Assembly (NCBI GenBank): GCA_030710605.1
Contig: CP092880.1
Location: 21,013,680 to 21,077,679, forward strand
Source: Cordylochernes scorpioides
Lineage: Eukaryota > Arthropoda > Arachnida > Pseudoscorpiones > Chernetidae
Direction of reading: 5' to 3'
DNA: 64,000 nt
Shown here: in pieces, positions 7,501-47,584 of the stretch
Numbering within the stretch: the stretch's first letter is position 1
Layout of the letters: every line of letters starts with the position of its first letter
Notes under the pieces: generated by a model
Databases searched by the model: none
Told to the model about the DNA's origin: nothing
The model's input: only the letters and a program-made list of their open reading frames with translations
Position numbers and translations under genes: made by a program

Positions 7501-8250
7501 TCGGCTGTTGATTTAAGATCCAGAATACTTCAACTTAATCTAATTTGACCTAACATAAGCTAACTTAAAATTAATTGAGAAGATTAGCATGGCCCCTGCG
7601 CAAGGATGACACGCAAAATCGTGAAGCGTTCCAACTTAAAATTAATTATGAAACAAGAAAGAGGAATCTCCTTATTGTGCAACTGAAAGTTGCTGATGGC
7701 CGGCGTTAATTTCATCATCATGTGTAATGTACTTTGTACAAACTGAGAATAAATAAATAAAACTCTGTAATAGATTAAGAGTTGGGCTAAAGCAGAGATC
7801 GAGATGTAGAAGTCCCACAACTTTAAGAACGAGGCCTAGAAGATGTCAGGGCGTTGCCAGTGTACAATGACACTTCTTCCGATCCACGCCCTTGTTGCAC
7901 CCAGTGAAACCGAATACTTCCTCTCGGCAAATGTATATAGCCTTCAACAGGACAAGAGAGGGCTGTTGAAGAGCAGAGAAGAGAGAAACACATCTCCGGA
8001 AACCTTTTTGATTGTTTAAGAAAGATGAATAATCAGGTAAATAAATATAGCCGAATAAGTGTTTAAATTTTTCATTTCAAACAATATAAAGACTTCCCAA
8101 TTTTCTCGTGAGATTTTTAAGAATAATTCCCACCGATAATAATGGTAATAATGAGATGTCATATTAGTGTTTGTTATCTTATCGGCTGTTGGTTTAAGAT
8201 CCAAAATACTTTAACTTAACCTAATTTAACCTAACATAAGCTACCTCAAT
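7501..8250. repeat. Direct repeat pair flanking 0.6 kb
   Basis: The segments 7501-7565 and 8178-8240 both read 'tatcggctgttg', then 'tttaagatcca', then an AACTTAA/CCTAACATAAGCTA run, with scattered mismatches. The DNA between them contains the U6 retro-copy. No LTR hallmarks are seen, so the pair may be two copies of a short dispersed repeat or a duplicated segment. Confidence 0.45.
7562..7647 (+). pseudogene. U6 snRNA retro-copy with 15-bp target duplications
   Basis: The 56 bp at 7577-7632 match the central and 3' part of spliceosomal U6: GAGAAGATTAGCATGGCCCC, the catalytic-region words, then TGACACGCAAAATCGTGAAG and GCGTTCC. The 5' half is missing and so is the terminal U-run. AACTTAAAATTAATT stands directly on both sides (7562-7576 and 7633-7647), a 15-bp target-site duplication. 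This is the mark of a LINE-type retrotransposition event acting on U6 RNA. It is not a working gene because the 5' stem-loop and promoter are absent. Confidence 0.9.
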
Positions 8251-11484: not shown

Positions 11485-11725
11485 GGATATTAATTAAATA
11501 ATTAAAATGGTTTCTGGAGATGAGTTTTTTTTATTCAAGCAGTCTCAGGTTTTCAGGCATCTCTGTCCATCTACAGGGGAATATAAATAAAAGAATAAAA
11601 CGCAGCAAAATTGTTTATATGTTCTCCTGGAGAAGGACAGAGATGACCGAAAACTTGAGATTATTTGAATAAAATAAAATAAACTCACATCTCCAGAAAC
11701 CTTTTTAATTGTATTTAATATATAC
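11485..11725. repeat. Fold-back element
   Basis: The word TGGTTTCTGGAGATGAGTTT on the left is inverted as 'aaactcacatctccagaaac' on the right, and CATCTCTGTCC is paired with GGACAGAGATG. The loop is near 11590-11620. A single arm-like copy lies at 7380-7500. Confidence 0.65.
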
Positions 11726-12338
11726 TCATAGCCAAACTTAAATAAGTTGTACCTTTTAGCATGTATATCGGGATTCAGACAATATCTCTGAAAGATACAC
11801 TCATGTACAAAACTTAAGGAAGTTGTACCTTTTAGCATGTATATCGGGATTCAGACAATATCTCTGAAAGATACACTCATGTACAAAACTTAAGGAAGTT
11901 GTACCTTTTAGCATGTATATAGGGATTCTGACAATAACTCTGAAAGATACACTCAGGGACAAAACTTAAGGAAGTTGTACCTTTTAGCATGTATGTCGCG
12001 ATTCTGACAATAACTATGAAAGATACACTGATGGACAAAACTTAAGGAGGTTGTACCTTTTAGCATGTATATCGCGATTCTGACAATAACTATGAAAGAT
12101 ACACTCATGGACAAAACTTAAGTAAGTTGTACCTTTTAGCATGTATATCAAGATTCAGACAATAACTCTGAAAGATATTTGATACACAGTGACCTTTATT
12201 GAAGACACATGAGATAACCAAGTGGTAATAAAATTGCATTTGTCTCCTTCAAAGAAATATTAATAAAACGGACAAACACAAAACACGCGTCGACATTAAA
12301 AATTTTCCACTTCCTTAAGTTTTGTCCATGAATGTATA
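11722..12338 (+). repeat. 76-bp tandem array, about 6 units, with unique tail
   Basis: Units of 76 bp (for example starts at 11811 and 11887) alternate GTTGTACCTTTTAGCATGTA and 'aataactctgaaagatacac'. The array ends at about 12180 and is followed by a unique tail with CACTTGGTTATCTC-type sequence (complement of GAGATAACCAAGTG) that also borders the arrays at 31640-31850 and 52450-52560. Array plus tail therefore form one dispersed element. Confidence 0.85.
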
Positions 12339-13192: not shown

Positions 13193-13420
13193 GTCCAGGG
13201 TAGCCGAGTGGACAAGGCACCTGCCCGGTAAGCAGAAGGGTGTGGGTTCGATTCCCGCCCCTGGACACTTTTTATTTTTCCGTTCGCCATTACTCTTCAT
13301 GTTTCACCTTTCCATACCTCATCCTCAAAGTTAGAAATGTCGCTATTTCTCTTTGAAAATAAATTTCGATTTTTATAAAAAGAAACATTCGCGGTATAAT
13401 TTCAATTTTCGTTTTCCTAA
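13193..13420 (+). repeat. tRNA-derived SINE-like element (family B)
   Basis: The first 74 bp fold as a tRNA: 7-bp acceptor stem GTCCAGG/CCTGGAC, an A-box-like TAGCCGAGTGG and a perfect B box GGTTCGATTCC. The anticodon loop reads CCGGTAA, giving GGT (Thr), but position 33 is C instead of the required U, so it is unlikely to be a working tRNA. A body follows (CTTTTTATTTTTCCGTTCGC and on) that recurs at 31440-31600 and 54520-54665. The flanks 'gaacggaaaaat' and 'atttttccgttc' are themselves inverted. Confidence 0.7.
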
Positions 13421-21755: not shown

Positions 21756-21815
21756 ATCAATCATAGTACCCAGTATGTCTCACCAAGACTCTCTAAATGT
21801 CCGTGTTGTCCACAG

Positions 21816-22062
21816 GGAACTATGGCATCAGTGGGATGGACGCCTTCCTAAAGCTGGCACACCAAGAAGGCATCTGTGTCGCCACCACGGACTCCATCCT
21901 CAGTAATGCCGCGGACCAATACTTCGATGATATCATTACCAACCTGCGCAAGTACCCCAACGCCCGCGTCGTGGCGTGCTTCTGTGAGGGCATGACAGTC
22001 CGTGGCCTGATGCGGGCTGCTAAACGTCAGAACGCTACGGGGGAGTTCCTCTTCATTGGCAG
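21816..22062 (+). CDS. Metabotropic glutamate receptor, internal exon (ligand-binding domain)
   Basis: This 247-bp exon is bounded by the acceptor TGTCCACAG and the donor CAG|GTAATG. It encodes about 82 residues of the Venus-flytrap glutamate-binding domain of a class C GPCR, an extracellular module. Recognisable are GNYGISGMDAF, the segment GICVATTDSILSNA, ARVVACFCEGMTVRGLM and GEFLFIG. In mGluR1 numbering the equivalents of Tyr236 (NYG) and Glu292/Gly293 (CFCEG) are present, all ligand contacts. It starts with two bases of a split codon and ends with AG, which the next exon completes as AGC (Ser). Reading past the donor meets TAA at the second codon. Similarity is greatest to group I (mGluR1/5), though other arthropod mGluRs were not compared. 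Confidence 0.95.
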
Positions 22063-22200
22063 GTAATGGCTTCTACTTTGTTGTCAAGTATTGCTTTTTA
22101 TTTGTTGGATAATACGTTTTTTAAGATGGGTACTTCTTTGTTGACAAGTAATGGCCTCTATTTGTTGAAAGATACTGTTTGTTTTATGCTGAGAGATACT
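22063..22200 (+). repeat. Degenerate first units of the donor-derived minisatellite
   Basis: From the splice donor onward the sequence can be split into units of 18-26 bp, each ending TTGTTG or a variant and beginning with a GTA/ATA word: GTAATGGCTTCTACTTTGTTG, then 'caagtattgctttttatttgttg', and 'acaagtaatggcctctatt'. These are diverged versions of the 22-bp unit that follows. Confidence 0.7.
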
Positions 22201-22800
22201 GGTTTCTTTGTTTACAGGTTCTGGATTGTTGTTAGATACCGGTCTCATTGTTGGCAGATACCGGTTTCATTGTTGGCAGATTCTGGGATTATTTATAGAC
22301 AAGTACCGGTTCCACTGTTGGCAGGTACTGGCTTCTTTGTTGGCAGACACCGGTTTCATTGTTGGCAGACACCGGTTTCATTGTTGGTAGGTACCGGTTT
22401 TATTGTTGGTAGGTACCGGTTTCATTGTTGGCAGATACCGGTTTCATTGTTGGAAGATACCAGTTTCTTTGTTGGCAGATACCGGTTTCATTGTTGGCAG
22501 ATACCGATTTCATTGTTGGCAGATACCGGTTTCATTATTGGCAGATACCGGTTTCATTGTTGGCATATACCGATTTCATTGTTGGCAGATACCGGTTTAA
22601 TTGTTGGCAGATACCGGTTTCATTATTGGCAGATACCGGTTTCATTGTTGGCAGATACCAGTTTCATTGTTGGCAGATACCGGTTTCATTGCTCGCAGAT
22701 TCTGGATTCTTTGTTGGCAGATACCGGTTTCATTGTTGGCAGATACCGGTTTCATTGTTGGCAGATACCGGTTTCATTGTTGGCAGATACCGGTTCGGTA
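22201..22800 (+). repeat. 22-bp minisatellite, about 25 units
   Basis: The consensus is TTGGCAGATACCGGTTTCAT followed by TG. Units are highly uniform in the right half and diverged toward the exon. Because 22 is not a multiple of 3 and the unit has no stop, all three + frames stay open, each giving the same 22-residue period (LLADTGFIVGRYRFHCWQIP and on). These long ORFs are a by-product and not genes. The array ends in GGTACCGGTCGAAC. Confidence 0.95.
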
Positions 22801-23796
22801 CCGGTCGAACTTAACGTTTTCAGGCATAATAAAATTGCTAACTACTTCTATTGTATCTCTGTAACTAGTTTTACCCTGTATTCCAATATGTTGTAAATGG
22901 TCTTTTTATGGTACGCAAAGCGGCATTTGGACGTGTATTCTAACAATGGCACCGATCCTTGGAAATATTCTGTAGTAATTTTGTTATATTCTTGTTATCT
23001 ACTGTCTTAAATGATTATATTCACCTAAGTATGCCATATATATTCAGACCATTTCATCTCCACTGGCATTGTATCCATCAATTCTTCTAAATGTGTACTG
23101 GAGTTCTAGGTATAACCTAAATTTTAAAGAATGCAGAGCGCCATCTAGTGGAATAAATATCAATTAAACATTGATTTACGTTATGGGTCGGCCAAATATT
23201 ATGGAATTATATGACACTCTACCATCTAAAATTGTTCATGTGTGTAGTCAGAATATACCTATTTTATTTTAAAATATATTGATACGAAAAAAAAATATAT
23301 ATATATATATATGCTGTAAACATCTCAAAATTATTATTCTCATATTTAATTTTTCATAGAACTTTATTCCAATAATCATCATCACTTAGCATTGTTTACA
23401 TGAGGACTTTGTAAAAAAGCAGACGTTGGTTAAAAATAAAAACTAACGAGACATACATTTTTGATTTTTTATTTCCTTTACATTAAAAATAGCTATAAAA
23501 GAAAAACTTACATATATCCGCTACAATATTTTATAGTTGTATATTATAGTTTTTTTTTTATTTGAATCATTGAATATTTCGTTAAATTTTATCAGTAGTT
23601 ATCCATTTTAAGAGGCGCTATATTGTTCAATTCTATCTTTCATTTTTGTTGTAAATATATCGACAAGGGTATTGAAGGGCTATTAACTCCCGAATTAACC
23701 TGAATTAACCAAATAAATAAATATTTCATGTGAATACTCGCTCTAATTTTAAAATATTAAAAAAATATATAGAATAATTTTTTATGCGAACATTTG
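22801..23796. other. Unassigned intronic DNA
   Basis: A fragment of the repeat C vocabulary (GCAGAGCGCCATCTAGTGGA) is near 23135. The rest is AT-rich and unrecognised. Confidence 0.4.
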
Positions 23797-26984: not shown

Positions 26985-28700
26985 TATCTTTATTTACACA
27001 CAGCTTTATTGACCACCGGTCTTATACAGATTCACTACAGGAAGGAAGCATAGATAGAGCTCCTCTACTTCAGTCAGCGCAGAACCCAACAGCCTCCAGG
27101 TCCAACGTTATAACAGAATACACTCATAAAGCTTTATTAAGACCACCGGTCTTATACAGATTCACTACAGGAAGGAAGCATAGATAGAGCTCCTATAGTT
27201 CAGTCAGCGCAGAACCCAACATCCTCCAGGTCCGACGTTATAACAGAATACACTCATAAAGCTTTATTAAGACCACAGGTCTTATACAGATTCACTACAG
27301 GAAGGAAGCATAGATAGAGCTCCTATAGTTCAGTCAGCGCAGAACCCAACATCCTCCAGGTCCGACGTTATAACAGAATACACTCATAAAGCTTTATTAA
27401 GACCACAGGTCTTATACAGATTCACTACAGGAAGGAAGCATAGATAGAGCTCCTATATTTCAGTCAGCGCAGACCCCAACAGCCTCCAGGTCCGACGTTA
27501 TAACAGAATACACACATATAGCTTTATTAAGACCACAGGTCTTATGCAGATTCACTACAGGAAGGAAGCATAGATAGAGCTCCTATATTTCAGTCAGCGC
27601 AGACCCCAACAGCCTCCAGGTCCGACGTTATAACAGAATACACTCATAAAGCTTTATTAAGACCACAGGTCTTATGCAGATTCACTACAGGAAGGAAGCA
27701 TAGATAGAGCTCCTATACTTCAGGCAGCACAGAACCCAACAGCCTCCAGGTCCGACGTTATAACAGAATACACTCATAAAGCTTTATTAAGACCACAGGT
27801 CTTATGCAGATTCACTACAGGAAGGAAGCATAGATGAAGCTCCTATACTTCAGGCAGCACAGAACCCAACATCCTCCAGGTCCGACGTTATAACAGAATA
27901 CACTCATAAAGCTTTATTAAGACCACAGGTCTTATACAGATTCACTACAGGAAGGAAGCATAGATAGAGCTCCTATACTTCAGGCAGCACAGAACCCAAC
28001 ATCCTCCAGGTCCGACGTTATAACAGAATACACTCATAAAGCTTTATTAAGACCACAGGTCTTATACAGATTCACTACAGGAAGGAAGCATAGATGGAGC
28101 TCCTATATTTCAGGCAGCACAGAACACAACAACCTCCAGGTCCGACGTTATAACAGAATACACACATATAGCTTTATTAAGACCACAGGTCTTATACAGA
28201 TTCACTACAGGAAGGAAGCATAGATGGAGCTCCTATATTTCAGGCAGCACAGAACCCAACATCCTCCAGGTCCGACGTTATAACAGAATACACTCATAAA
28301 GCTTTATTAAGACCACAGGTCTTATGCAGATTCACTACAGGAAGGAAGCATAGATAGAGCTCCTATATTTCAGGCAGCACAGAACCCAACATCCTCCAGG
28401 TCTGACGTTATAACAGAATACACTCATAAAGCTTTATTAAGACCACAGGTCTTATGCAGATTCACTACAGGAAGGAAGCATAGATGGAGCTCCTATATTT
28501 CAGGCAGCACAGAACCCAACATCCTCCAGGTCCGACGTTATAACAGAATACACTCATAAAGCTTTATTAAGACCACAGGTCTTATGCAGATTCACTACAG
28601 GAAGGAAGCATAGATAGAGCTCCTATACTTCAGGCAGCACAGAACCCAACATCCTCCAGGTCCGACGCATGTCCAGTTGCCATAGACTCCACCGTGCATA
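26985..28700 (-). repeat. 13 x 130-bp satellite made from an LTR segment
   Basis: GCTTTATTAAGACCAC recurs every 130 bp from 27131 to 28561, and the first unit begins at about 27001, giving 13 units with no change of length. Each unit, read on the - strand, contains TATAAGACC (TATA-like), a 7-bp hairpin TAAGACC/GGTCTTA with a 3-nt loop, and AATAAAGC (poly(A) signal). The right edge runs on into 'gacgcatgtccagttgccat', the LTR sequence also found at 26180, so the array lies inside one LTR copy. Confidence 0.95.
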
Positions 28701-31849: not shown

Positions 31850-32247
31850 TGTAGTAATGTATAGTTGTTGTATCTGTTGGATGAATGTAGTGTGGCATGT
31901 TGGTTTGCAGTCGTGGTGGCCACAATGATTAGAGTGGTTTCAGGCGTGATTGGAATTACACAAAAGGACGAGGCATGTTGGATGGCACCATAGAGATGGC
32001 GAAAGAGTGAGTGTAGCCGGCGCCGGTAGGGGAGAGATCTGTCTAGAGGGGTCTGTCCATCATTGTGTCTCAAAGCCGACTAATCTGTTTGCATGAGAAG
32101 GGGGCATACCCGACTTGTTTTTCGGACCTCTTTCCTCCTTCTGGCATCGACTGTCACTCACTCGAAATTTTATTTGTCACTTTGGCAATTACATTATACA
32201 TTTATACAATACATGGAGACATAGATATATTGGAATATATTACAACA
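31850..32247 (-). repeat. LTR 1 of the three-LTR element
   Basis: Starts TGTAGTAATGTATAGTTG and ends TATTACAACA on the + strand. It differs from LTRs 2 and 3 at 'ggatgaatgtag' against 'ggattatgtag'. Confidence 0.85.
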
Positions 32248-35200
32248 GTTTATGCCCCGGTTGATGAAAATTAGCTTATGGTGATTATAGATGAAATCAT
32301 AAGATAATTATAATGGGGGGAAATAATTTGTATACAAATTGGTTTGATTATAGTATGGGGTTGTAGAATTATAACATTGGGTATGTTATCCTTAATAATA
32401 ATGATTAATAATAAAAAGAGAAATGCTAACAAATAATAATGTTAAGCCCAATGTATAAAAATATATTTAAAAAAAAAAGATTTTTTTTAAATGTAAAGAT
32501 ATAAATATAAATTTGGGTGATTATATACAGCATTGAATGTTGAAATTAATAATTGAAAGTGCATTGAATTATAGGGTGAGCTAATTTAAAAAGTCTAGAT
32601 AGGTGGACATAGAATAGATTCTGATACTGCGATGCAATGCGACGTTATGGGATCGTAGGCATTGGTCCATCTACACGATATGGGCTGTTCTATCAGACGG
32701 ATTTGGAAATAGGTGGTGGAAGCTTTGGTCGAGAAAAAGAGTGAGAGAGAGAATCGTTCTGTCGCATAAAAAAAAAAACGATTTGGCCGCGGTAAGGCAG
32801 TGAAAGTGAGGTGATCGAAAAAAAAAAAAAAAAAGAATTGCCCGAATGTGAGAAAAAAGAAAAAGGGGCGATAATGCTCGAACCGGGCCGTGAATGAAAA
32901 AAAACTCATCTAACTAGCTGCTCAAGTTCGACTGTTGGGAAGGTTACAGCGAAGAAGCGTTTGTAGTTAAGATGGAATAAATGTGAGAAATCAAAGTTCT
33001 AGCGGATAGTAACGATCTCTCTGATAAGGTATGGGCTGAGATGCCGTGAGAATTTGGTGGGTAATGGTGTCGATGCATTTTCTGAAATTTTAACTTAAAA
33101 ATCTGAAAATAGGATTTAAAAATTGAAGTTGAGAAAAAAAATAAAATTGAAAATTGTGTGTGATGAATGTTGGTACAATATTATAAAAAGTAAAAATGAT
33201 TATAAACATTGAAGATTAAAAATAAAAGTTATCATCTCGATTGTTCATATAAAAATAAAAAGACAAAAGTTGAAACAAAAAAAAAAAAAACTCGAAATAT
33301 AATTGAAATAAATAATTAATAAATATGCGAAATATTAAAAAGAGGTATAGTATTTGAAATGATTAAAGATAGAAAAGTAATATGTGATATGAAAAGAGAG
33401 TAACAATACTAATTAATTTTAAAGAAGGAAATATATAGAACAGTTGGTGTTCAAGCCAAAACAATCTTTAAGTATACAGGGATTGACATTGATGTAGTTG
33501 ATAGAACCTATGGTGATGTGTTAGTTGTGATGTGCTATATGTTTATGGCATGGGGAATTTAGTTAGCTCGGTGTTCATACGTCGATGTACTTCGACATAA
33601 GTTTGACTAGGTAAATAAATGTTTGTTCACGAAGTGTTAGGCCAGATATGCTCTATTAGATAAGACTTGCGACGTGGACACGCTTTCGAGAGAGAAAAAG
33701 GAGAAAAAAAAAGATAAAAGTGTCACAGAAAAAATGAAGGCATAATGTAGCCTGGTAAAAGTGAAAAAAAAATAGTGTTGTCGAGTCGCTGTGACACGTG
33801 CGAAAAAAAAATTGTAAATGGAAAGGCGTCACGTGAAATCGTTGTTTGGGTAAATAATCCAGCCTAATTCATCATGAACAACAAGTTTACTGAAGTCATA
33901 GGTGGTGGTTGTACGAGATTTTGTGAATGTTGGTGTTTAATTGTGAACGAGAGAGAAAAATTTCGCTAAGTGGGAAGCGAGTGTAAATTTTACGTTTGAA
34001 ATACATTGGTAGCGGGGACATGTAGAAGTTGGCTGGCGGTGACCTAGCTTTTGGGGGAATTGAACGGTCCCGCGTTATATTTAACCTTTGTTGTTGAAGG
34101 AAAGATGGTTGATTAGTGATGATTTTGAAATTTTGTTAATTTATATTGGAAAAAGGATTTTGAAAAGGAATGTTGATAAGGTAGCGAAAATCATCAATGG
34201 AATAAGGAAATGGAAATATAGCAAAACCTTTTTTTTTTTTTGAGACGTTTACACGTAATGGTGTAGATGGAATAAAAAACAATTTTGCGAAATTTAATCA
34301 TAAAATGGGTGTAGGTAAAGGTGAAAAAGATGGAGGAAAATGTGAGGGTGATATATATTGCAATTTATGTTTGAAATTCAAGAGTTTACTTTTTAAAATA
34401 GCGTTGCTATCATTAGTTGGTTTGTGGAATAGAATGTTTTTATAGAAGGAACAATGGTGAAAAGGGCATTACACTGGGTGAGGTGAGTTGGTATTTGAGA
34501 AGGCAGTTGTGATGAGGACATGGGGAAACTTTCTAAGTGTTGGCTATATATTGTTTTTAGTTGGTAGCAGGCGTACATTTTTAAAATAACAAAAACTTGA
34601 ATTTTTTCTTTAAATTAGAATTTTGAGTTATAGAAGGTTTTATTTTGAAAATGACATTATTCAAAATGAATATGTAAAAAGGGGTTTAAAGTCTAAAGGT
34701 TGGTTGAGAAGAGCTGAAAACATTAAGTATAAAATTATTTTGAAAAATGTGTAAAATGAAGTGGTTTTTTTTTTGGTCATAAAAATGGAATTATAGTTTT
34801 TATAATATGGAGATTTAAAAGTAAATGAAACTGAAATGGTTAAATTACTATAGGTTAACTGGCATATAATGAAGCAATATAGGTGATTGATAGACTTAGA
34901 ATTTTATGATGTGGATACAATCAATTTTTTTTGAAATTTAGATAAAATATGACACAAGAAAAAAAAAAAATTGCATAAATGAAATGGAGCATGGATGTCA
35001 ATTGGTAGGGGCTAAAATTATAAAAGAAATAATTGTAATAAAAATATACTTGAAACTTGAATACTCGTGAAAACAGGTTCAAAATAAGTTGTACTCACTG
35101 TACAAAAATGTTCTTTGGAGTGTAGTCCGAAAGTGATCGTTTATTGATGAGGCCATGGCCCTTGGTGATGGTTGGAGAAGGCGTGAGGGAGGAGAAGTTC

Positions 35201-35450
35201 TCGTCGTCAGGTGGATTGTGGATGTTTGCAGTGAGCACATTGGATTTGTAATGGCGAGTGGTTGAAAGGTTTGTGGCAATTGAAGGTAGGCTATCTACCT
35301 AAGGCTGGAAGCGGTGATGTCTTGGATATATTCCACGAGTTGTGTCACGATGTCCGTGACTGTGGGTGGCATGGTGGTGATCTTCGGCGTCGCTCTGTCC
35401 TCCAGGTTCCATCCTCTTTGCGTTGTCCTCGGTATATCCTGTCGACTTTC
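32248..35450 (-). other. Internal region 1, non-coding
   Basis: Purine-rich on the + strand, with many A-runs. Next to LTR 2, at 35436-35450, it reads TCCTGTCGACTTTC, whose complement contains the PBS-like AGTCGACAGGAT. A short - strand ORF just inside the PBS (MPPTVTDIVTQLVEYIQDI) might be a remnant gag start. This is a guess from position only. Confidence 0.75.
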
Positions 35451-35847
35451 TGTAGTAATGTATAGTTGTTGTATCTGTTGGATTATGTAGTGTGGCATGT
35501 TGGTTTGCAGTCGTGGTGGCCACAATGATCAGAGTGGTTTCAGGCGTGATTGGAATTACACAAAAGGACGAGGCATGTTGGATGGCACCATAGAGATGGC
35601 GAAAGAGTGAGTGTAGCCGGCGCCGGTAGGGGAGAGATCTGTCTAGAGGGGTCTGTCCATCATTGTGTCTCAAAGCCGACTAATCTGTTTGCATGAGAAG
35701 GGGGCATACCCGACTTGTTTTTCGGACCTCTTTCCTCCTTCTGGCATCGACTGTCACTCACTCGAAATTTTATTTGTCACTTTGGCAATTACATTATACA
35801 TTTATACAATACATGGAGACATAGATATATTGGAATATATTACAACA
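35451..35847 (-). repeat. LTR 2 (central, shared)
   Basis: It serves as the boundary of both internal copies and differs from LTR 3 by one base noticed ('ctcactcg' against 'ctcaatcg'). Confidence 0.85.
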
Positions 35848-38800
35848 GTTTATGCCCCGGTTGATGAAAATTAGCTTATGGTGATTATAGATGAAATCAT
35901 AAGATAATTATAATGGGGGGAAATAATTTGTATACAAATTGGTTTGATTATAGTATGGGGTTGTAGAATTATAACATTGGGTATGTTATCCTTAATAATA
36001 ATGATTAATAATAAAAAGAGAAATGCTAACAAATAATAATGTTAAGCCCAATGTATAAAAATATATTTAAAAAAAAAAAGATTTTTTTTAAATGTAAAGA
36101 TATAAATATAAATTTGGGTGATTATATACAGCATTGAATGTTGAAATTAATAATTGAAAGTGCATTGAATTATAGGGTGAGCTAATTTAAAAAGTCTAGA
36201 TAGGTGGACATAGAATAGATTCTGATACTGCGATGCAATGCGACGTTATGGGATCGTAGGCATTGGTCCATCTACACGATATGGGCTGTTCTATCAGACG
36301 GATTTGGAAATAGGTGGTGGAAGCTTTGGTCGAGAAAAAGAGTGAGAGAGAGAATCGTTCTGTCGCATAAAAAAAAAACGATTTGGCCGCGGTAAGGCAG
36401 TGAAAGTGAGGTGATCGAAAAAAAAAAAAAAAAAAGAATTGCCCGAATGTGAGAAAAAAGAAAAAGGGGCGATAATGCTCGAACCGGGCCGTGAATGAAA
36501 AAAAACTCATCTAACTAGCTGCTCAAGTTCGACTGTTGGGAAGGTTACAGCGAAGAAGCGTTTGTAGTTAAGATGGAATAAATGTGAGAAATCAAAGTTC
36601 TAGCGGATAGTAACGATCTCTCTGATAAGGTATGGGCTGAGATGCCGTGAGAATTTGGTGGGTAATGGTGTCGATGCATTTTCTGAAATTTTAACTTAAA
36701 AATCTGAAAATAGGATTTAAAAATTGAAGTTGAGAAAAAAAATAAAATTGAAAATTGTGTGTGATGAATGTTGGTACAATATTATAAAAAGTAAAAATGA
36801 TTATAAACATTGAAGATTAAAAATAAAAGTTATCATCTCGATTGTTCATATAAAAATAAAAAGACAAAAGTTGAAACAAAAAAAAAAAAAACTCGAAATA
36901 TAATTGAAATAAATAATTAATAAATATGCGAAATATTAAAAAGAGGTATAGTATTTGAAATGATTAAAGATAGAAAAGTAATATGTGATATGAAAAGAGA
37001 GTAACAATACTAATTAATTTTAAAGAAGGAAATATATAGAACAGTTGGTGTTCAAGCCAAAACAATCTTTAAGTATACAGGGATTGACATTGATGTAGTT
37101 GATAGAACCTATGGTGATGTGTTAGTTGTGATGTGCTATATGTTTATGGCATGGGGAATTTAGTTAGCTCGGTGTTCATACGTCGATGTACTTCGACATA
37201 AGTTTGACTAGGTAAATAAATGTTTGTTCACGAAGTGTTAGGCCAGATATGCTCTATTAGATAAGACTTGCGACGTGGACACGCTTTCGAGAGAGAAAAA
37301 GGAGAAAAAAAAAGATAAAAGTGTCACAGAAAAAATGAAGGCATAATGTAGCCTGGTAAAAGTGAAAAAAAATAGTGTTGTCGAGTCGCTGTGACACGTG
37401 CGAAAAAAAAAATTGTAAATGGAAAGGCGTCACGTGAAATCGTTGTTTGGGTAAATAATCCAGCCTAATTCATCATGAACAACAAGTTTACTGAAGTCAT
37501 AGGTGGTGGTTGTACGAGATTTTGTGAATGTTGGTGTTTAATTGTGAACGAGAGAGAAAAATTTCGCTAAGTGGGAAGCGAGTGTAAATTTTACGTTTGA
37601 AATACATTGGTAGCGGGGACATGTAGAAGTTGGCTGGCGGTGACCTAGCTTTTGGGGGAATTGAACGGTCCCGCGTTATATTTAACCTTTGTTGTTGAAG
37701 GAAAGATGGTTGATTAGTGATGATTTTGAAATTTTGTTAATTTATATTGGAAAAAGGATTTTGAAAAGGAATGTTGATAAGGTAGCGAAAATCATCAATG
37801 GAATAAGGAAATGGAAATATAGCAAAACCTTTTTTTTTTTTTGAGACGTTTACACGTAATGGTGTAGATGGAATAAAAAACAATTTTGCGAAATTTAATC
37901 ATAAAATGGGTGTAGGTAAAGGTGAAAAAGATGGAGGAAAATGTGAGGGTGATATATATTGCAATTTATGTTTGAAATTCAAGAGTTTACTTTTTAAAAT
38001 AGCGTTGCTATCATTAGTTGGTTTGTGGAATAGAATGTTTTTATAGAAGGAACAATGGTGAAAAGGGCATTACACTGGGTGAGGTGAGTTGGTATTTGAG
38101 AAGGCAGTTGTGATGAGGACATGGGGAAACTTTCTAAGTGTTGGCTATATATTGTTTTTAGTTGGTAGCAGGCGTACATTTTTAAAATAACAAAAACTTG
38201 AATTTTTTCTTTAAATTAGAATTTTGAGTTATAGAAGGTTTTATTTTGAAAATGACATTATTCAAAATGAATATGTAAAAAGGGGTTTAAAGTCTAAAGG
38301 TTGGTTGAGAAGAGCTGAAAACATTAAGTATAAAATTATTTTGAAAAATGTGTAAAATGAAGTGGTTTTTTTTTTGGTCATAAAAATGGAATTATAGTTT
38401 TTATAATATGGAGATTTAAAAGTAAATGAAACTGAAATGGTTAAATTACTATAGGTTAACTGGCATATAATGAAGCAATATAGGTGATTGATAGACTTAG
38501 AATTTTATGATGTGGATACAATCAATTTTTTTTGAAATTTAGATAAAATATGACACAAGAAAAAAAAAATTGCATAAATGAAATGGAGCATGGATGTCAA
38601 TTGGTAGGGGCTAAAATTATAAAAGAAATAATTGTAATAAAAATATACTTGAAACTTGAATACTCGTGAAAACAGGTTCAAAATAAGTTGTACTCACTGT
38701 ACAAAAATGTTCTTTGGAGTGTAGTCCGAAAGTGATCGTTTATTGATGAGGCCATGGCCCTTGGTGATGGTTGGAGAAGGCGTGAGGGAGGAGAAGTTCT

Positions 38801-39049
38801 CGTCGTCAGGTGGATTGTGGATGTTTGCAGTGAGCACATTGGATTTGTAATGGCGAGTGGTTGAAAGGTTTGTGGCAATTGAAGGTAGGCTATCTACCTA
38901 AGGCTGGAAGCGGTGATGTCTTGGATATATTCCACGAGTTGTGTCACGATGTCCGTGACTGTGGGTGGCATGGTGGTGATCTTCGGCGTCGCTCTGTCCT
39001 CCAGGTTCCATCCTCTTTGCGTTGTCCTCGGTATATCCTGTCGACTTTC
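35848..39049 (-). other. Internal region 2, non-coding
   Basis: A near-copy of 32248-35450 with the same PBS-like word beside LTR 3. Confidence 0.85.
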
Positions 39050-39446
39050 TGTAGTAATGTATAGTTGTTGTATCTGTTGGATTATGTAGTGTGGCATGTT
39101 GGTTTGCAGTCGTGGTGGCCACAATGATCAGAGTGGTTTCAGGCGTGATTGGAATTACACAAAAGGACGAGGCATGTTGGATGGCACCATAGAGATGGCG
39201 AAAGAGTGAGTGTAGCCGGCGCCGGTAGGGGAGAGATCTGTCTAGAGGGGTCTGTCCATCATTGTGTCTCAAAGCCGACTAATCTGTTTGCATGAGAAGG
39301 GGGCATACCCGACTTGTTTTTCGGACCTCTTTCCTCCTTCTGGCATCGACTGTCACTCAATCGAAATTTTATTTGTCACTTTGGCAATTACATTATACAT
39401 TTATACAATACATGGAGACATAGATATATTGGAATATATTACAACA
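39050..39446 (-). repeat. LTR 3, ending in (TA)n
   Basis: Ends ATTACAACA and then passes into TATATATATA, matching the (TA)n before LTR 1. Confidence 0.85.
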
Positions 39447-39690: not shown

Positions 39691-40463
39691 TGAAATAATG
39701 TTGAAGTCCTGGTAGCTCTTGTTGTACTGTGTTGACCCAGAGGAACAGTCAGCATGTAGAGTTTTCCAGTACCTCTCTGCACCTTGGAAGACCTTTAAAA
39801 GTTCTCACAAAATACAGGCAGTCGTGGTCGAGGCAGAGTGGAAAGCTGGGGATATCCACACAAAAAACGAAGACACAGTTGCACTAAGAAAGTTCCGTAA
39901 ACAGATAAAAGTTGAGCCAGGAGCGAAAGATGGAGACATAGAAGTTTCTTGCTCGTCTACATGATAGTTGAGATCGACATAAGGTACGACCGACGTGAGC
40001 TGACGCTAAGGGTGAACTAAACTCAACTGACTGAACTGTACTGAGCTGTCAAGCCACTGTAAGGTGATGATTTATAGGTTAAAGACGGGGTGACCTTATG
40101 TGACAGGGGCGTTTGAGAAAGGGCGCCTTTACCTGTCCAGGTGTGAGAGGGGTCTCTGCATTCCACCACATGTGACAGTGTGGGTGGCCTGTCGTGGGAA
40201 CTGTGAATCTACCTGATTTATGACTCCCATCTTTAGACTCTGTTGTTTTGGCAATTCTATGCTCGATCTCTGCTTTAGCTCAACTATTAAATCTATTACA
40301 GAATTTATTTATTTATCCACTTTGTACAAATTACATTACATAGGTGATGCAATGACACAGATTAATCATGCGCATAATTATTTATAGATGTGTCTCTATA
40401 TACAACATGACAATCTTGTTATAAGTTATCTACACAATATGAGGTTGTTGTTTTAAATTACCA
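39691..40463 (-). repeat. 3' LTR, 773 bp
   Basis: TG...CA ends (TGAAATAATG and AAATTACCA on the + strand). Near 40303-40316, AATTTATTTATTTATCC is the complement of a poly(A)-signal run. The 81-codon + strand ORF in it is an LTR reading with no known domain. Confidence 0.9.
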
Positions 40464-42423
40464 TAGATGGGCCCCGGGAGTGAAAGGGTTTATCCGGGTT
40501 TAGGCGGGTAAAGCCTCTCTAACACAGGTAAGTAATTAAAATTTCTTTTAATTAATTTAAACTGTGAGGGTTAAAAAGGGCTATAACAAGATGATATTTG
40601 TTGGATATATAAAAGTGAAATAAAAATGACATTGTGTTTGATTAACAAAAAAGATGATTAAAATAAAATGATGACATAAAAATTCACATTCTAAGAGAAT
40701 ATTGGTGGGCGTTGGACAGGGTTAGTAGTTAAAGAATAAGCAATTGTGAGATTTACACATGCAATCAAATACTTAGGTCCAGGTGCAAAGCGAGGATATG
40801 GACTTGAGCGTCTTCCTAGGCAATGTTTCACCTGTGATCCTGTATAGGGTAACAGTGCTTTGTCACAATTGTAGTGTTATTGGGTTGAAAAGTTGTTGAA
40901 GAATATGTAATTGTTAGAAGTGCCCATGTAAACCAAATACTCAGATCCAGGTGCAAAGCGAGGATATAGACTTGAGCTGTCTTCCTTGGCAATGTTTCAC
41001 TTGCGATCCTATATAAGGGTTACAGTGTTTTGTCACAATTTTAGGATTATTGGGTTAAAAGTTGTTGAAGAAAAGTTGCTTATTAATATGATTGAGAAAG
41101 GAGTGAAATAGAGCCATGCGATAAGTAGAATTGTAGCGACAGTAGGTGATCTGACTTGACTCGAAATCAAAGGTTGAATGTGGTCCGCTAGAGCTGAAAA
41201 AAAAGTTGAAAGTTGAAAAAAGTGAACGCTTTGTGTATACGTTGGTGATTTGCTCTGCGGATGAAATGAAATAAACTCTTGAAGCTTGTTCAGACCAGAA
41301 GTTTGGATTTGTAAGTCTGGGGAACTGTGTTCAAGGCGTTTGTTGAATTACGAAATCAAAAAATAAATTGTCAAGCAGTGCTGTCGTTTTTCTACATTGA
41401 TGTGACGCAATGACTGAAAAGATAGTGATGAAAAATATAGGGGATTGGTTAAAGAATATGATTGTTGAAAACGATTGTTGTAGATGCCCGATAGTGGATG
41501 ATAAACCTTGTCAGATAATAAAGGTATTTAAACAAATAAAATATAGTGAATAGAAATATAGAAATATGATTGCGGGTACAAAAAGTGTAAGTGGACAAAA
41601 TTAAACCTGTAATATATAAAATATATAATAAATAATAAAATAAAAATAATTTTTGAAACAATTAGATGTTTTACAATACTAAAATAATATCATGAAAAAT
41701 AAAAGTAAATTTGATTAAAGGTTTTTTTTTTTTTAAATGTTGGATTAAAAAATTTGTTTATATAATTGAAAGGTGAAAATAAAAATAATTATTCAAGATT
41801 TTATACAAAAATTCAAATATAATTAAAGGTTATTAATGATTGGATAAATTTTAAGTAGTGTAAAATTGAACAAAAATTGTCTCTTTTTAAGAAAAGTTAC
41901 AGTTGTGGTGTGTGACTAGATCATATCCCTTTGGTAAACATCGGTGTTTTGATGATTCTCTGAAGCGGGAATATGTGAAATGATCCCTTCGTTTGTCCAC
42001 AATGTTGGTATGCAGAGAATGATTTCTCTTTCGCGTTATAAAGTCTATATAAGACTTAACCAAATTGTTTTAATTGGTGTTATCAATTAACATGTAAAAT
42101 GTTTAATGTATGTTGTGTGTGTTGTGATATCTCGTTGGTGAGATTCTCGAGGAAATCTAAATGATTAGTATGAAACATGTGTTCAAACTGGCGTCATGAA
42201 GCTAGCGTTCAAGATGACTGCTTGAGGGGGGAGAGAAGATATTCTCAAAAGATAACAGTGACCAAGGGAGCGACGTCAAAATGGGCGTCCACTTCCCCCT
42301 TTTTTTTTTCACGGAAATTCTATTTTTGGGGTGGTCACACATGTGGGATGGCTTGCTATGTTTGAGATTTACTCGAAACTGACTTTCTCTCTCTTCTTTT
42401 GTTGAGTTTGGCATATTTCTTGC
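40464..42423 (-). other. Element 3' non-coding region
   Basis: Two kilobases without a domain-bearing ORF separate pol from the 3' LTR. Two direct repeats of about 150 bp (around 40740-40880 and 40895-41045) share CAGGTGCAAAGCGAGGATAT and 'ggcaatgtttcac'. Next to the LTR, the complement reads CACTCCCGGGGCCCATCTA in the polypurine-tract position, but it is not a classic tract. No env-like gene was recognised. Confidence 0.7.
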
Positions 42424-45400
42424 CTATTTGAAAATACTGGGGTTTAAATGCAAAAAGGGTTGTGAGCTTGTAGGCGGTATAATTCGGCCTAGTTGCGTCT
42501 CGAAGATATCTGGAGTCAAATGATTGAATTCACTGAAATATACATCTTGAGACAATCGCTGTGGGTTTTGAGCAAATCGGGTTTGTGGAGGTGTAATGTA
42601 CAGAACATTCTCTGTGTAATATTTTAATATATTGACATGTATGGTGTCACTGTCTCTATTGAGAGGCTGATTGGGGCGATCTATTCGAACGACATTGGGT
42701 GAAATTATTTCAATTATTTTGTATGGTCCAGTAAAATATGGTGCTAATTTTCCTGTGTCTGGATGTCTGTAATTTTTTACCAAAACAAGATCATTCACTT
42801 CGAAATGTGGTGTTCTGTGCTGCTTATCAAATGTTTCTTTATCTCTTTTATGCTTATTTTGAGTACGAGAGTTTGCTATCTCTCGAGCTATATTTATTTC
42901 GGGGTATGGGTTAAGATGAGTTCTTAGATCTGGGGGGATAACATTGAACATTAAGTAGGTAGGTGGAAAACTTGTGACAGAATGGGGCGTGTTATTGTAC
43001 GTCTGAGTGACGCGCTTAACTAGTTGAGTCCAGGAAGCTTTCGGATTTTCTAGATAAGCTAGTCTGAGCTTGCCTGTAATGGTCGCATTTAAGCGTTCTA
43101 TTGAACCGTTTGCCTGTGGGTTATTGCTGGTAGTTAGTAGAGGTTGTATACCATGCGTTATTAGAAATTTACGGAATTTTTCTGAGGTAAAAGCGGGCGC
43201 TCTGTCAGATAACAGACGTTTTGGAGATCCTTGCTGTAGTACCGTTTTGAGGGTTTGTATGTATGTTAGGGTACTGGTGGACTTCGATGGAAAGGTCCAA
43301 GCATATCGCGTTAAATGATCCACTATTACGTGTATATATGTCTTGGAGTGTCCATATTTCGAAAATCCAGCTATGGTATCTATAGAGATTAAGTCGAATG
43401 GTTGTTGAGGTGGTGGAATTTGTCCAAGGGCACCATAGGGTTTACCTTTGGGCCTTTTAATGATTTGGCAGGTGTGACACGACTTGACAAATTTTTCTAT
43501 AGATTTAGAGATACCTTTCCAGTAGTACTGGGCAGTAATTATGCGGGTCATCTGAGAGATGCCTGGGTGGTTATATTCTTGGTGAACTTTATTCATTAGA
43601 GTATGTTGCAGGGATTCGGGAATTATTATTTTAATTACACCTTTTCGGGTAATGGTATGTAAGCCGTTTGTATCAATGTTGAAGGGGGATGCTGTTGGTT
43701 GATGTTGTTTGATAATATCAGCACTGACAAATCCTACAAAGGGGTTTCGTGATAACAAATCTGCTTCGTACTGTTGGCTGCCTTTGAGGTAGTGGATTTC
43801 GTAATTATAGGTAGATAGTCTCAGGCTCCATCTAAAGAGTCGTCCTGACGGATTTTTTATAGTTTTAAGCCATTGTAAAGCTTGGTGATCTGTGTATATG
43901 GTGAATTTTATACCGGTGAGGTATATTCGGAATTTGTCTACACTTTCGACGATGGCGAGGCACTCGAGTTCGGAAACGGTGTAGTTTCTCTCATGTGCTC
44001 TAAGGGCGCGGCTGAAATATTGTACAGGATGTACTTGTCCGTCTGGATGTACCTGTTTGAGTATGCCTGCGATCCCTTGGGTGGATGCGTCGCAATAAAG
44101 GCGGCAGGGTAAACCGACTTGATATAAGTGTAGTACTGGTTTACTGGTTAAACTCTCTTTGAGAGTGGTGAAAGCTTGTTGACAATCTGGGTCCCAATTC
44201 CATTTCACATCTTTTTTAAGTAGTTTATTTAAAGGTGCTCGTAAGCGGGCATAATCTGGTATAAACTTATTATACACGTTCACTGCTCCTAAAAATGATT
44301 GTAATGTCTTTTGATTGGTAGGTGGTTTGATGGCACTTATGGTATCAAGGTTGCGCGTCTGTGGTGCATAAGTACCTGCGGTAACAGTGTATCCTAAGAA
44401 ATCTATATTTGTTTTAAAAAACGAACATTTGTTATAATTGAGTTTGATGTTTTCGTGTTGACATACCGTTAGAAATTGTTGTAGGTGTTGTAGATGATCC
44501 TCTAAGGTGTCAGAAAAAATAATGAAATCGTCGAAGTAATGGGTAACAAAATTTAGTTTATATTTTTGCATGACCTGGTTTATGGCACGATGGTATATCT
44601 GTGGCGAATTTTTAAATCCGTAAGGAAGTCTACAAAATTCGTACTGACTATCCAACGTCACGAAAGCTAGTAGATTACGTGAGTTAGGTTCTACTTCCAC
44701 TTGCCAATATGCGGATGCTATATCTACAGAAGAGTAGTATTTGGCTTTCGACAATTTGTCAAGAATGGTTTCTATTAAAGGTAAAGGATGTACGTCTGGA
44801 GCGATGATTTCATTGAGTTTTCTGTAATCAATACAGAAACGTTTCGTTTTGTCACGTTTTGTAACAAGAGTTATTGGACTGGCATAAGGTAAAACTGACG
44901 GGGCAATAATTCCATGTTGGAGCATTTGCTCTATTTGGGTTTGTATTTCTTGTTGGTCGTGTAGTGGCACTCTATATGGGCGTAATGCTATTATTTTATC
45001 TGTGGTGGTATTGATTTTTACCGGTGGTATGTTCAATTTGGGCACATTGTATTTATTAGTAGAGAACACATGCGAGAATTCATATAGAATTCGGTGGAGT
45101 TCGTGTGGACAATGTTCTAACTGAGGTGTCGCATTAGAAGGTATAGAAATCTCAATATCATGGGTAGGAGATATAGTGGGTGAAACAATAGTGGGGGAAC
45201 ATATAATTGGGGTAGGGTCCGCCACGTGTAAACAGGATTGGTTCGAGGGGAAGGTGGTAAAAATATCCGTTTTTCTCGGTTGAGTGGGACATAAATCCTG
45301 TTTGCACTTGGTGAACTTATAGACATTCGTTGGGAGAGCATCATTATTTTGATAAATTTGGAGATTATTAAAATCTATGATTAATTTAAATATTTTAAGG

Positions 45401-45666
45401 GTATTAATAGATAAAATACCAAAAGGTAGTGAAGCTTCTACTATAAAAAATTTTAGTTTTTGGGTGAGGTTACCTATTTTAAGTTTTAAAAATATATATC
45501 CAAGGGTATTTACATTGTGGGCTATTGCGTTTATAGTTAAACTGTACTGATGGATAATAATTTTATATGGTAACCTATTTTCTATGGTTCTTAAAATATC
45601 TAAGTTAAGTAGGTTTATAGATGCTCCCGTGTCTATTAAAAAGGGCAAATTTACATTAGGTGACAA
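42424..45666 (-). CDS. Ty3/gypsy pol polyprotein (protease, RT, RNase H, integrase)
   Basis: It makes the enzymes that copy and insert the element. Domains in order: aspartic protease with the active site DTGAS near residue 13; reverse transcriptase from about 190 to 420 with FCIDYRKLNE, SVDIASAYWQVEVEP, LPYGFKNSP and a YFDD catalytic motif; RNase H with YCDAS, SELECLAIVE and YTDHQALQWL; an HHCC zinc module (HQEYNHPG ... CHTCQ); an integrase core with Asp in SIDTIAG, Asp in LSDRAPAF and Glu in NGSIERLN; and a C-terminal GPY/F-like module (YFTGPYKIIEI). No chromodomain. The frame is open upstream of the first listed codon to a TAG, so the listed TTG start is arbitrary. It is expected to be made as a gag fusion by frameshifting. 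Confidence 0.97.
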   Translation of the reverse strand: MSPNVNLPFLIDTGASINLLNLDILRTIENRLPYKIIIHQYSLTINAIAHNVNTLGYIFLKLKIGNLTQKLKFFIVEASLPFGILSINTLKIFKLIIDFNNLQIYQNNDALPTNVYKFTKCKQDLCPTQPRKTDIFTTFPSNQSCLHVADPTPIICSPTIVSPTISPTHDIEISIPSNATPQLEHCPHELHRILYEFSHVFSTNKYNVPKLNIPPVKINTTTDKIIALRPYRVPLHDQQEIQTQIEQMLQHGIIAPSVLPYASPITLVTKRDKTKRFCIDYRKLNEIIAPDVHPLPLIETILDKLSKAKYYSSVDIASAYWQVEVEPNSRNLLAFVTLDSQYEFCRLPYGFKNSPQIYHRAINQVMQKYKLNFVTHYFDDFIIFSDTLEDHLQHLQQFLTVCQHENIKLNYNKCSFFKTNIDFLGYTVTAGTYAPQTRNLDTISAIKPPTNQKTLQSFLGAVNVYNKFIPDYARLRAPLNKLLKKDVKWNWDPDCQQAFTTLKESLTSKPVLHLYQVGLPCRLYCDASTQGIAGILKQVHPDGQVHPVQYFSRALRAHERNYTVSELECLAIVESVDKFRIYLTGIKFTIYTDHQALQWLKTIKNPSGRLFRWSLRLSTYNYEIHYLKGSQQYEADLLSRNPFVGFVSADIIKQHQPTASPFNIDTNGLHTITRKGVIKIIIPESLQHTLMNKVHQEYNHPGISQMTRIITAQYYWKGISKSIEKFVKSCHTCQIIKRPKGKPYGALGQIPPPQQPFDLISIDTIAGFSKYGHSKTYIHVIVDHLTRYAWTFPSKSTSTLTYIQTLKTVLQQGSPKRLLSDRAPAFTSEKFRKFLITHGIQPLLTTSNNPQANGSIERLNATITGKLRLAYLENPKASWTQLVKRVTQTYNNTPHSVTSFPPTYLMFNVIPPDLRTHLNPYPEINIAREIANSRTQNKHKRDKETFDKQHRTPHFEVNDLVLVKNYRHPDTGKLAPYFTGPYKIIEIISPNVVRIDRPNQPLNRDSDTIHVNILKYYTENVLYITPPQTRFAQNPQRLSQDVYFSEFNHLTPDIFETQLGRIIPPTSSQPFLHLNPSIFK

Positions 45667-45688
45667 TTCAGTCCATATTATAAGCTGT

Positions 45689-46681
45689 TCAACGAAAATA
45701 AGTTTCAGGTTTTCCTACCGTTGAGCTGCTCGCGGGGCTTGTAGAGTCGTCTCGGCTTGCAGCTTGGACTTGGGGAACAGGGCTCCGAGATTGGACCTTG
45801 GGTCGGGTACCAGATTTTGGTACAGTGGTTGTGCGTGGTCTGGCGCTGTAGACTTGGCTTGTTCGGTCCTGTTGGAACCGTTGTTCACACTGGGAGTGCC
45901 AGTGCATAGCATTGCAATACTTGCAAGGCGAGGGTGGGGGTGCAACTTGGTACGTTACACGTGATGACCGCTGGTTGTTGTGCCGCGGTGGTGGGTTGTG
46001 GTAGGTTGGATGTGGGGCCTTGTCTACTTGGCGCTGGTACACTGCACTGGTGGCACACTGAGTTCTTCTTATTCTCGACACTAGGTCGAACCATTCTTTA
46101 ATGGTGTTTGGCTGCACCGTGGCGATTAATCGCTGATCTGCGACGGGTAGTCCTTCGGTCAGAGAATCTATTAATATGTCGGCGGGTAGGTTTAATTTCA
46201 TGCCCATTACCGTTTTGTTTTGGTAGTAGTCTTCTAGGGGCATTTGGGGTGTCAATTTGATGGCTAGGAAGCGTGAAAACGACGCTTCTGTCGATGTTGG
46301 GAATAAATCGATCAAGGTTTGGCGGACATCAATATAAAATAACCTATCTAACCGTAGGTTTCGGAAATATTGTAGGGGCTTACCTTGCAGGTAGCAGGGT
46401 AACTTGCGTAGGCGGTCCGTGTAGGTCAGCTTAGCTCGGTCTGCTTGGGCATCGAAGTTGTCGAAAAAGCTCTGGGCTTCAAAGGTACCATCGTATGGAC
46501 TCACATCTATCTCCCTCGGAGATCGGGCGACCAGCAGCTTATTCAGGGCATCGGCGATCTGTGTCAGCGGGTCTGCGGAGGTCCCTTGGGGCGGCGACGT
46601 TTCCTCCTCTTCAAATGTCGTATCTTGTTGGGGAACAGATAGCCCGGTCGCATCGTTGGACTGTTCGGTTTGCTCTTCCAT
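45689..46681 (-). CDS. Ty3/gypsy gag (capsid/nucleocapsid) protein
   Basis: The 330-residue protein should assemble the cytoplasmic particle that packages the element RNA. It begins with an acidic, Gln/Thr-rich segment (MEEQTEQSND). A capsid-like helical core follows, including FDAQADRAKLTYTDRLRKLP, YYQNKTVMGMKLNLP and LTEGLPVADQRLIATV. A single zinc knuckle reads CKYCNAMHWHSQC, spaced C-x2-C-x3-H-x4-C, one residue shorter than the usual C-x2-C-x4-H-x4-C. The tail is Ser/Pro/Arg-rich. ATG at 46681 lies about 130 bp inside the PBS. The reading frame ends at a TGA that overlaps the pol frame by eight codons. Confidence 0.93.
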   Translation of the reverse strand: MEEQTEQSNDATGLSVPQQDTTFEEEETSPPQGTSADPLTQIADALNKLLVARSPREIDVSPYDGTFEAQSFFDNFDAQADRAKLTYTDRLRKLPCYLQGKPLQYFRNLRLDRLFYIDVRQTLIDLFPTSTEASFSRFLAIKLTPQMPLEDYYQNKTVMGMKLNLPADILIDSLTEGLPVADQRLIATVQPNTIKEWFDLVSRIRRTQCATSAVYQRQVDKAPHPTYHNPPPRHNNQRSSRVTYQVAPPPSPCKYCNAMHWHSQCEQRFQQDRTSQVYSARPRTTTVPKSGTRPKVQSRSPVPQVQAASRDDSTSPASSSTVGKPETYFR

Positions 46682-46794
46682 CTTTGCACTTTCTCGCTTC
46701 TATCTGGACTATCTAGCTTTCTTCGTTTGGTATCCTTCGTTTTGGTTATCCTGTCGGTTACTGTAATGAGATGAGAATTCCAGTAGCTTTTGTA

Positions 46795-46811
46795 GAGATC
46801 CTGTCGACTAC
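46795..46811 (-). promoter_or_regulatory. Primer binding site, tRNA-Ser-like
   Basis: Just inside the 5' LTR, the - strand reads GTAGTCGACAGGATCTC. This matches the complement of the tRNA-Ser 3' region (GTAGTCGGCAGGATTC) with one internal mismatch over 14 bases, but the part that would pair with the terminal CCA is missing. Priming from a trimmed or internal tRNA-Ser site is the inference. Confidence 0.65.
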
Positions 46812-47584
46812 TGAAATAATGTTGAAGTCCTGGTAGCTCTTGTTGTACTGTGTTGACCGAGAGGAACAGTCAGGATGTAGAGTTTTCCAGTACCTCTCTG
46901 CACCTTGGAAGACCTTTAAAAGTTCTCACAAAATACAGGCAGTCGTGGTCGAGGCAGAGTGGAAAGCTGGGGATATCCACACAAAAAACGAAGACACAGT
47001 TGCACTAAGAAAGTTCCGTAAACAGATAAAAGTTGAGCCAGGAGCGAAAGATGGAGACATAGAAGTTTCTTGCTCGTCTACATGATAGTTGAGATCGACA
47101 TAAGGTACGACCGACGTGAGCTGACGCTAAGGGTGAACTAAACTCAACTGACTGAACTCTACTGAGCTGTCAAGCCACTGTAAGGTGATGATTTATAGGT
47201 TAAAGACGGGGTGACCTTATGTGACAGGGGCGTTTGAGAAAGGGCGCCTTTACCTGTCCAGGTGTGAGAGGGGTCTCTGCATTCCACCACATGTGACAGT
47301 GTGGGTGGCCTGTCGTGGGAACTGTGAATCTACCTGATTTATGACTCCCATCTTTAGACTCTGTTGTTTTGGCAATTCTATGCTCGATCTCTGCTTTAGC
47401 TCAACTATTAAATCTATTACAGAATTTATTTATTTATCCACTTTGTACAAATTACATTACATAGGTGATGCAATGACACAGATTAATCATGCGCATAATT
47501 ATTTATAGATGTGTCTCTATATACAACATGACAATCTTGTTATAAGTTATCTACACAATATGAGGTTGTTGTTTTAAATTACCA
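46812..47584 (-). repeat. 5' LTR, 773 bp
   Basis: Same length and ends as 39691-40463. Noticed differences: 'gaccgagag' against 'gacccagag', 'caggatgt' against 'cagcatgt', 'aactctactg' against 'aactgtactg'. Confidence 0.9.

Follow-up and report, generated by a model that had tools for sequence, protein, structure and literature searches.

The window, a 64,000-nucleotide stretch (C18:21013680-21077679) of the 2.62-Gb assembly of the pseudoscorpion Cordylochernes scorpioides (24 contigs), contains part of a metabotropic glutamate receptor (mGluR) gene. Two exons of the gene lie in the window. When joined, they matched mGluR5 at 5.8e-57 and mGluR3 at 2.3e-31. An intron of about 28 kb (intron 1) lies between them. 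Five more exons, located 3' of the window, were identified by reading translations, and a 7tm_3 match was found at two of these. Comparison of the exon protein with viral contigs yielded five pattern-matching stretches and no relatives. The codon at donor 1 is split AG|C; the exon ends at 22062 and the donor GT occupies 22063-22064. The features described below are listed in Table 1.

Table 1. Exons, repeat arrays and donor sites of the mGluR gene within the window
Feature	Positions	Strand	Evidence
mGluR ligand-binding-domain exon, ending TTC ATT GGC AG| (Phe-Ile-Gly-Ser)	21816-22062	+	joined-exon mGluR5 match; acceptor position
Junction unit GGCAG|GTAATGGCTTCTACTTTGTT: final 5 bases of the exon, donor, first 20 intron bases; unit 1 of array 1	22058-22082	+	cyclic alignment, unit tree
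Diverged proximal units of 15-24 bp; 22083-22166 nearer the junction unit than the distal consensus	22083-22230	+	cyclic alignment, scores
Main 22-bp array, consensus GGCAGATACCGGTTTCATTGTT, abrupt end	22231-22800	+	TRF, pattern search, cyclic alignment
Two units GGTAGGTACCGG... with a new GT (TTG|GTAGGT at 22387 and 22409); U1 pairing as good as at the real donor	22386-22429	+	U1 pairing
Next mGluR exon, ending ACT TGT ACA G|	50231-50463	+	joined-exon mGluR5 match; acceptor position
Array 2, headed by donor 2: 7 degenerate units starting ACTTGTA or ACATGTA (far end approximate); unit 1 spans the final 10 bases of the exon and donor 2 (GT at 50464)	50454-50590	+	motif positions, TRF, scores
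Copied donor in unit 3 of array 2, CCG|GTGAGT, 8/9 consensus matches, U1 pairing -8.9; predicted use adds 44 nt (hand count) and shifts the frame	50508-50509	+	donor scoring

Cyclic alignment divided 22058-22781 into 33 tandem units (array 1), that is, the junction unit and 32 others, followed by a partial unit at 22782. With head-to-tail units in the range of roughly 10-100 bp, array 1 is a minisatellite in this one assembly. TRF reported a period of 22 with 25.9 copies at 22225-22795, in agreement with the preliminary description of a uniform 22-bp array beyond diverged units. Allowing at most three mismatches, the 22-bp unit had 21 matches in the window, all of them inside 22231-22781. TRF run at a low threshold (score 30) detected no repeat in 21800-22260, and our description of the diverged stretch therefore depends on the cyclic alignment. 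The 108 bp past the array (beyond 22800) had no likeness to the units, and their scores were no better than those of shuffles. No match to a 24-base unit was obtained in viral contigs. One reading frame stays open through the 22-bp array for 290 codons (22024-22896), even though the unit length is not divisible by 3.

The junction string recurs at 22320-22342 with one substitution and a 3-nt gap, exactly as had been described. In a unit tree (FastTree), the junction was placed within the array units and not outside them: it was sister to unit 22143 (support 0.85), and the pair then joined unit 22320 (0.87), these supports being weak because the units have only 22 bases. The junction is 84% identical to each of these two units. 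The exon-adjacent stretch 22083-22166 aligned with the junction unit at a score of 60, which was reached by none of 500 dinucleotide shuffles (maximum 45; maximum 36 in 200), and with the distal consensus at 31 (none of 500, maximum 29). On the longer stretch 22083-22224, the junction scored 92 and the consensus 73. The junction unit alone scored 19 against the consensus, a value equalled by 5 of 200 shuffles; this modest fit indicates that the link between the junction and the array is carried by the intermediate units. The 40-base junction scored 37 against the following 700 bp (0/2000 shuffles). Of 5000 window positions drawn at random outside the listed arrays, however, 102 reached this score, because the window abounds in local duplications. 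The exon tail, placed in the register of the consensus, scored 14, as did 11 of 3000 window positions and none of 437 other exon positions. Null tests using 8-14 exon bases are uninformative, and those for the junction string include positions within arrays. Based on the string comparison, the shuffles and the unit scores, we rejected a chance likeness between the junction and the array.

The preliminary description placed the greatest divergence next to the exon. The trend holds, as identity to the consensus increased with distance (Spearman 0.73, p 1e-6), but the gradient is not strict: the junction-like unit 22320 lies beyond the consensus unit 22253, and the diverged unit 22694 is found close to the distal end. 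At the donor position, most copies have lost GT, with some outliers retaining it, as had been noted. By hand count, 8 of the 32 post-junction units have it: 6 among the 12 nearest the exon and 2 among the remaining 20.

Donor sites were scored against the consensus MAG|GTRAGT (nine positions) and for pairing with the 5' end of U1. Donor 1 had 7/9 consensus matches and a U1 pairing of -8.1. Array 1 had no site with at least 7 matches (the window mean is 2.17 per kb) and four sites with 6, among them 22387 and 22409, each at -8.3, and 22325 at -7.1. Reading from the exon into intron 1 yields FIGR and then a stop, so that any later GT in intron 1, if used as a donor, would truncate the receptor. 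The earlier suggestion that the spread copies had been "disarmed" as donors fares poorly: the AT state may be a single founder change copied by homogenisation, and the TTG|GTAGGT sites at 22387 and 22409 rival the real donor in U1 pairing.

A second array, overlooked in the preliminary description, is headed by the next donor of the gene. ACTTGTA occurs at 50454, 50475, 50498, 50531, 50554 and 50565, and ACATGTA at 50519; TRF reported 3.4 copies from 50454. The exon bases at donor 2, ACTTGTACAG, encode Thr-Cys-Thr plus one base, and the Cys is kept in mGluR5. When ACTTGTACAG was compared with the six downstream units, 48 of 60 places matched, a result equalled at 1 of 63,801 other positions. 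Outside the 15 listed arrays, ACTTGTA was the sole 7-mer with at least three different letters to have at least five copies in 130 bp. Scored in the same manner as donor 1, donor 2 gave 27, equalled at 100 of 5000 random positions (150 bp) and at 281 of 5000 (700 bp). Array 2 was found by looking, and its tests are therefore post hoc, though TRF had listed it. A whole-genome search with array 2 returned only itself, which need not mean that such arrays are rare. Donor 2 itself had 8/9 consensus matches and a U1 pairing of -10.9.

Two other donors of the gene have repeats nearby. Beyond the window, an array of 11.2 copies of 38 bp, likewise overlooked before, begins 15 bp past donor 7; when compared with its units, the exon tail and donor were absent from it. 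At donor 4, a two-copy duplication was read by eye downstream, and the exon is not clearly part of the copies. Thus, closeness to a donor need not imply descent from it. Local self-similarity was at least 39 at four of the seven donors (1, 2, 4 and 7), each score being equalled by 6.2-7.4% of 6000 random positions in 264 kb, a null that includes positions within arrays; donors 3, 5 and 6 scored 14-16. The six acceptors tested (A1, A2, A3, A4, A6 and A7, with A5 left out) scored 14-22, and nothing comparable was seen at them. By hand estimate, four of seven donors at 7.4% corresponds to a probability of ~0.001, and three of six without donor 1 to ~0.007, values that are generous because the cut of 39 is the lowest of the four scores and was chosen after they had been seen.

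We applied the same measure to other 7tm_3 loci, for which 14 exon ends were obtained and 12 donors could be placed (L032 and L038 were dropped as having no placeable donor). They scored 12-25 and none of the 12 had a comparable array; several of these donors are guesses, and L031 and L036 resemble copies of one gene. The pattern thus marks the mGluR gene and is unsupported as a genome-wide rule. Several 7tm_3 matches on C15, C21 and C2 form equal-score sets 9 to 78 kb apart, some of them inverted, and are likely recent receptor-gene duplications. Minisatellites are common in the 264 kb (9 kb masked), where we counted 23 non-overlapping arrays with a period of 12-60 and at least three copies. 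This makes an array in an intron less surprising; an array in register with an exon end is still surprising.

The preliminary description considered that the same array found elsewhere in the genome would speak against an origin from the donor. The outcome was divided: related units were found at other places, but they are not identical to those of array 1. A genome search with 22055-22800 returned 45 matches, the query itself among them; by our own grouping the others lie at 16 places (best 2.7e-33), and all of these non-self matches fell in query positions 258-745, i.e., 22312 onward. A reversed-array control gave no genome matches, and a column-permuted control, which was shorter (462 bases), gave five matches at three places (best 4.4e-18). 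The likeness to remote arrays exceeds both controls, yet is partly chance. The units of L002, L003, L004, L005 and L007 have 19-24 bp and have ATTGTTG, and most of them also GTTTC, in common with array 1; of the remote loci examined, L002, L007 and L034 contain the exact core TTCATTGTTGG. The remote units deviate from array 1 in length and in the middle. In cyclic comparison, five remote units scored 24-31 against the consensus and the junction unit scored 26. The junction unit scored 10-14 against the remote units, which is the level of shuffles, except that L003 reached 22 in cyclic comparison. Against 22083-22166, six remote array units scored 21-33 (their shuffle maxima were 24-40). Against 22083-22224, the scores were L004 59, L007 47, L005 47, L002 36, L003 23 and L034 21, and the numbers of shuffles (of 200) reaching them were 0 for L004 and L007, 1 for L002, 6 for L003 and L005 and 194 for L034. 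The fits of L004 and L007 indicate that the remote kinship extends to the outer proximal units. Translation of the flanks of L002, L003, L004 and L007 revealed no recognisable adjoining exon and no carrying element; at L003 there is, by our own reading, one exon-like frame ~1.1 kb off. Another 7tm_3 gene has an intronic 32-bp array (L034:646-1301), ~500 bp inside the intron, with 17 exact copies of TTCATTGTTGG on the minus strand.

Array 1 most likely grew by slippage from copies of the exon/intron junction, its distal part being homogenised, a reading that we hold with moderate confidence. The exonic bases common to the exon end and array 1 are only 5-7; GGCAG, which is among them, comprises the codon for Gly and the initial two bases of that for Ser in GSDGW, a motif also present in mGluR5. 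As GGCAG and ACTTGTACAG are coding bases that predate the arrays, descent from exon to array is likelier than the reverse, although the step itself is inferred. Capture of a donor from an older array was rejected, because the exon bases in common encode conserved residues. The earlier claim that array 1 arose from the gene's own donor thus gains from the unit tree, the fit of the proximal units and the conserved exon codons, and loses from the related arrays elsewhere. Short direct repeats could have led, through slipped replication or unequal exchange, to a joint duplication of the donor and the exon's final bases; TTG at 22056-22058 and 22081-22083, 25 bp apart, would permit such slipped pairing. 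Copies lying 3' of the working donor would leave with the spliced intron, and the array could lengthen intronward. Changes on the exon side would damage conserved codons and the donor and would be removed. With exon-side change removed and intronward growth tolerated, the exon-adjacent units would have aged in place, and exchange among distal units may have produced their uniformity and spread the variant with AT for GT. The same kind of event appears to have occurred independently at donor 2. The arrays probably have no useful role, and most copies are poor donors.

Alternatively, array 1 may be a member of a dispersed minisatellite class with a TTCATTGTTGG-like core, its place at the intron start and its donor likeness (GGCAG, TTGTTG) being coincidental. 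The distal unit has such a core in common with arrays at 16 other places, so kinship with these, or conversion from them, is possible. The excess of genome matches over both controls is consistent with such a class, as are the five remote units whose fit to the consensus is about equal to that of the junction unit, the core-bearing 32-bp array in the other 7tm_3 gene, and the L004 and L007 units, which beat all 200 shuffles on 22083-22224. However, the junction unit meets the remote units at shuffle level, the cyclic L003 score apart, and 22083-22166 follow the junction; the remote units are unlike array 1 in middle and length, the permuted control ascribes some of the likeness to chance, and no exon was recognised adjoining the four translated remote arrays. 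We regard a dispersed class as a serious but distinctly less probable explanation. An intermediate course, in which an array of donor copies afterwards had its distal part replaced, through conversion from the TTCATTGTTGG type or convergence on it, would account for the cline from junction-like to core-bearing units and for a junction unit without the core, but no conversion tract or donor array was identified, and the units in between are too short for dating. We consider this course improbable.

It is very unlikely that selection has maintained the copies as spare donors or U1-binding aids for the 28-kb intron. The copied donor at 50508 (8/9) would suit such a role, and in U1 pairing the sites 22387 and 22409 are no worse than donor 1; against this, array 1 lacks sites with at least 7 matches, a later GT in intron 1 would truncate the receptor, and GT has been lost in the distal units. 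Intron gain by duplication of an AGGT segment was rejected: elsewhere in the window, acceptor included, the best plus-strand match of the 40-base junction scored 22, versus 37 in the array, in a search that could miss an old, decayed acceptor-side copy.

Growth of array 1 from its junction may be compared with known systems. The human IFI6 (6-16, G1P3) minisatellite, studied by Turri, Cuin and Porter in 1995, reportedly supplies multiple splice donors, and its array is said to adjoin the exon. Downstream repeat units of IFI6 are stated to serve as donors (PMC4526556). As in IFI6, arrays 1 and 2 both start from the exon end, and unit 1 of each holds a donor that, judging by the gene model, is working. 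IFI6 units function as donors and its downstream units are used, whereas most array 1 units have lost GT and are not known to be used; sites with at least 7/9 matches number zero in array 1 and one in array 2, so the further units do not keep the donor consensus in the IFI6 manner. Unlike in IFI6, more than one donor of the mGluR gene is affected. De Grassi and Ciccarelli (2009) reported human minisatellites with a mean unit of 30 bp, some located at exon-intron boundaries and able to alter splicing (PMC2812944). The human repeats were detected through differing copy numbers in recent paralogs, with transcript support, whereas the mGluR arrays are seen in the sequence of one genome. A C. elegans minisatellite is linked to regions of alternative splicing (PMC4039745). 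Duplication of a segment with AG|GT was described by Hellsten (2011), as cited in PMC4974935, together with a 24-bp AGGT segment multiplied in fission yeasts. Array 1 likewise involves a duplicated segment holding AG|GT, but differs from intron gain as presented there by its 28-kb intron and by the lack of a like copy at the acceptor side. These two features suggest that the repeat grew within an existing intron.

The origin of a repeat from a splice junction is uncommon, but the kind is already known from IFI6, and the new part is its apparent recurrence within a single gene. Limited searches of the open literature, which covers few subscription papers, turned up no title reporting arrays at more than one donor of the same gene. 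Tentatively, the donors of this gene may repeatedly seed arrays that extend its introns at their 5' end, growth being kept one-sided by exon-side selection, with stages of two copies (donor 4), seven (donor 2) and 33 (donor 1); we doubt that this wider reading will hold. The seed of the array is readable here since coding constraint fixed the founding copy. Should splice donors prove more prone than other sites to seed arrays, large genomes would have in them a testable source of both intron growth and cryptic donors. Should this gene instead be a chance cluster, the case would be instructive but represent ordinary slippage.

The window has several other repeats. Within intron 1, 1.3-kb direct repeats (99.5% identical) at 39691-48120 surround long minus-strand frames read as gag and pol; we read this as an LTR retrotransposon and a young insertion. 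At 31850-39446, ~4.0 kb self-aligns with a shift of 3.6 kb at 99.7% identity, which is either an assembly artefact or a tandem duplication that happened very recently. A 130-bp unit is repeated in 12.8 copies with 97% matches at 27002-28667, and the same 76-bp tandem unit, ~91% identical, occurs on opposite strands at 11720-12177 and 52555-53840. Matches to tRNA families, one per strand, at 13194-13266 and 63115-63185 could represent tRNA-derived SINEs. Finally, a full-length U6 snRNA match (69 bits, plus strand), gene or pseudogene, is present upstream of the exons at 7535-7640.
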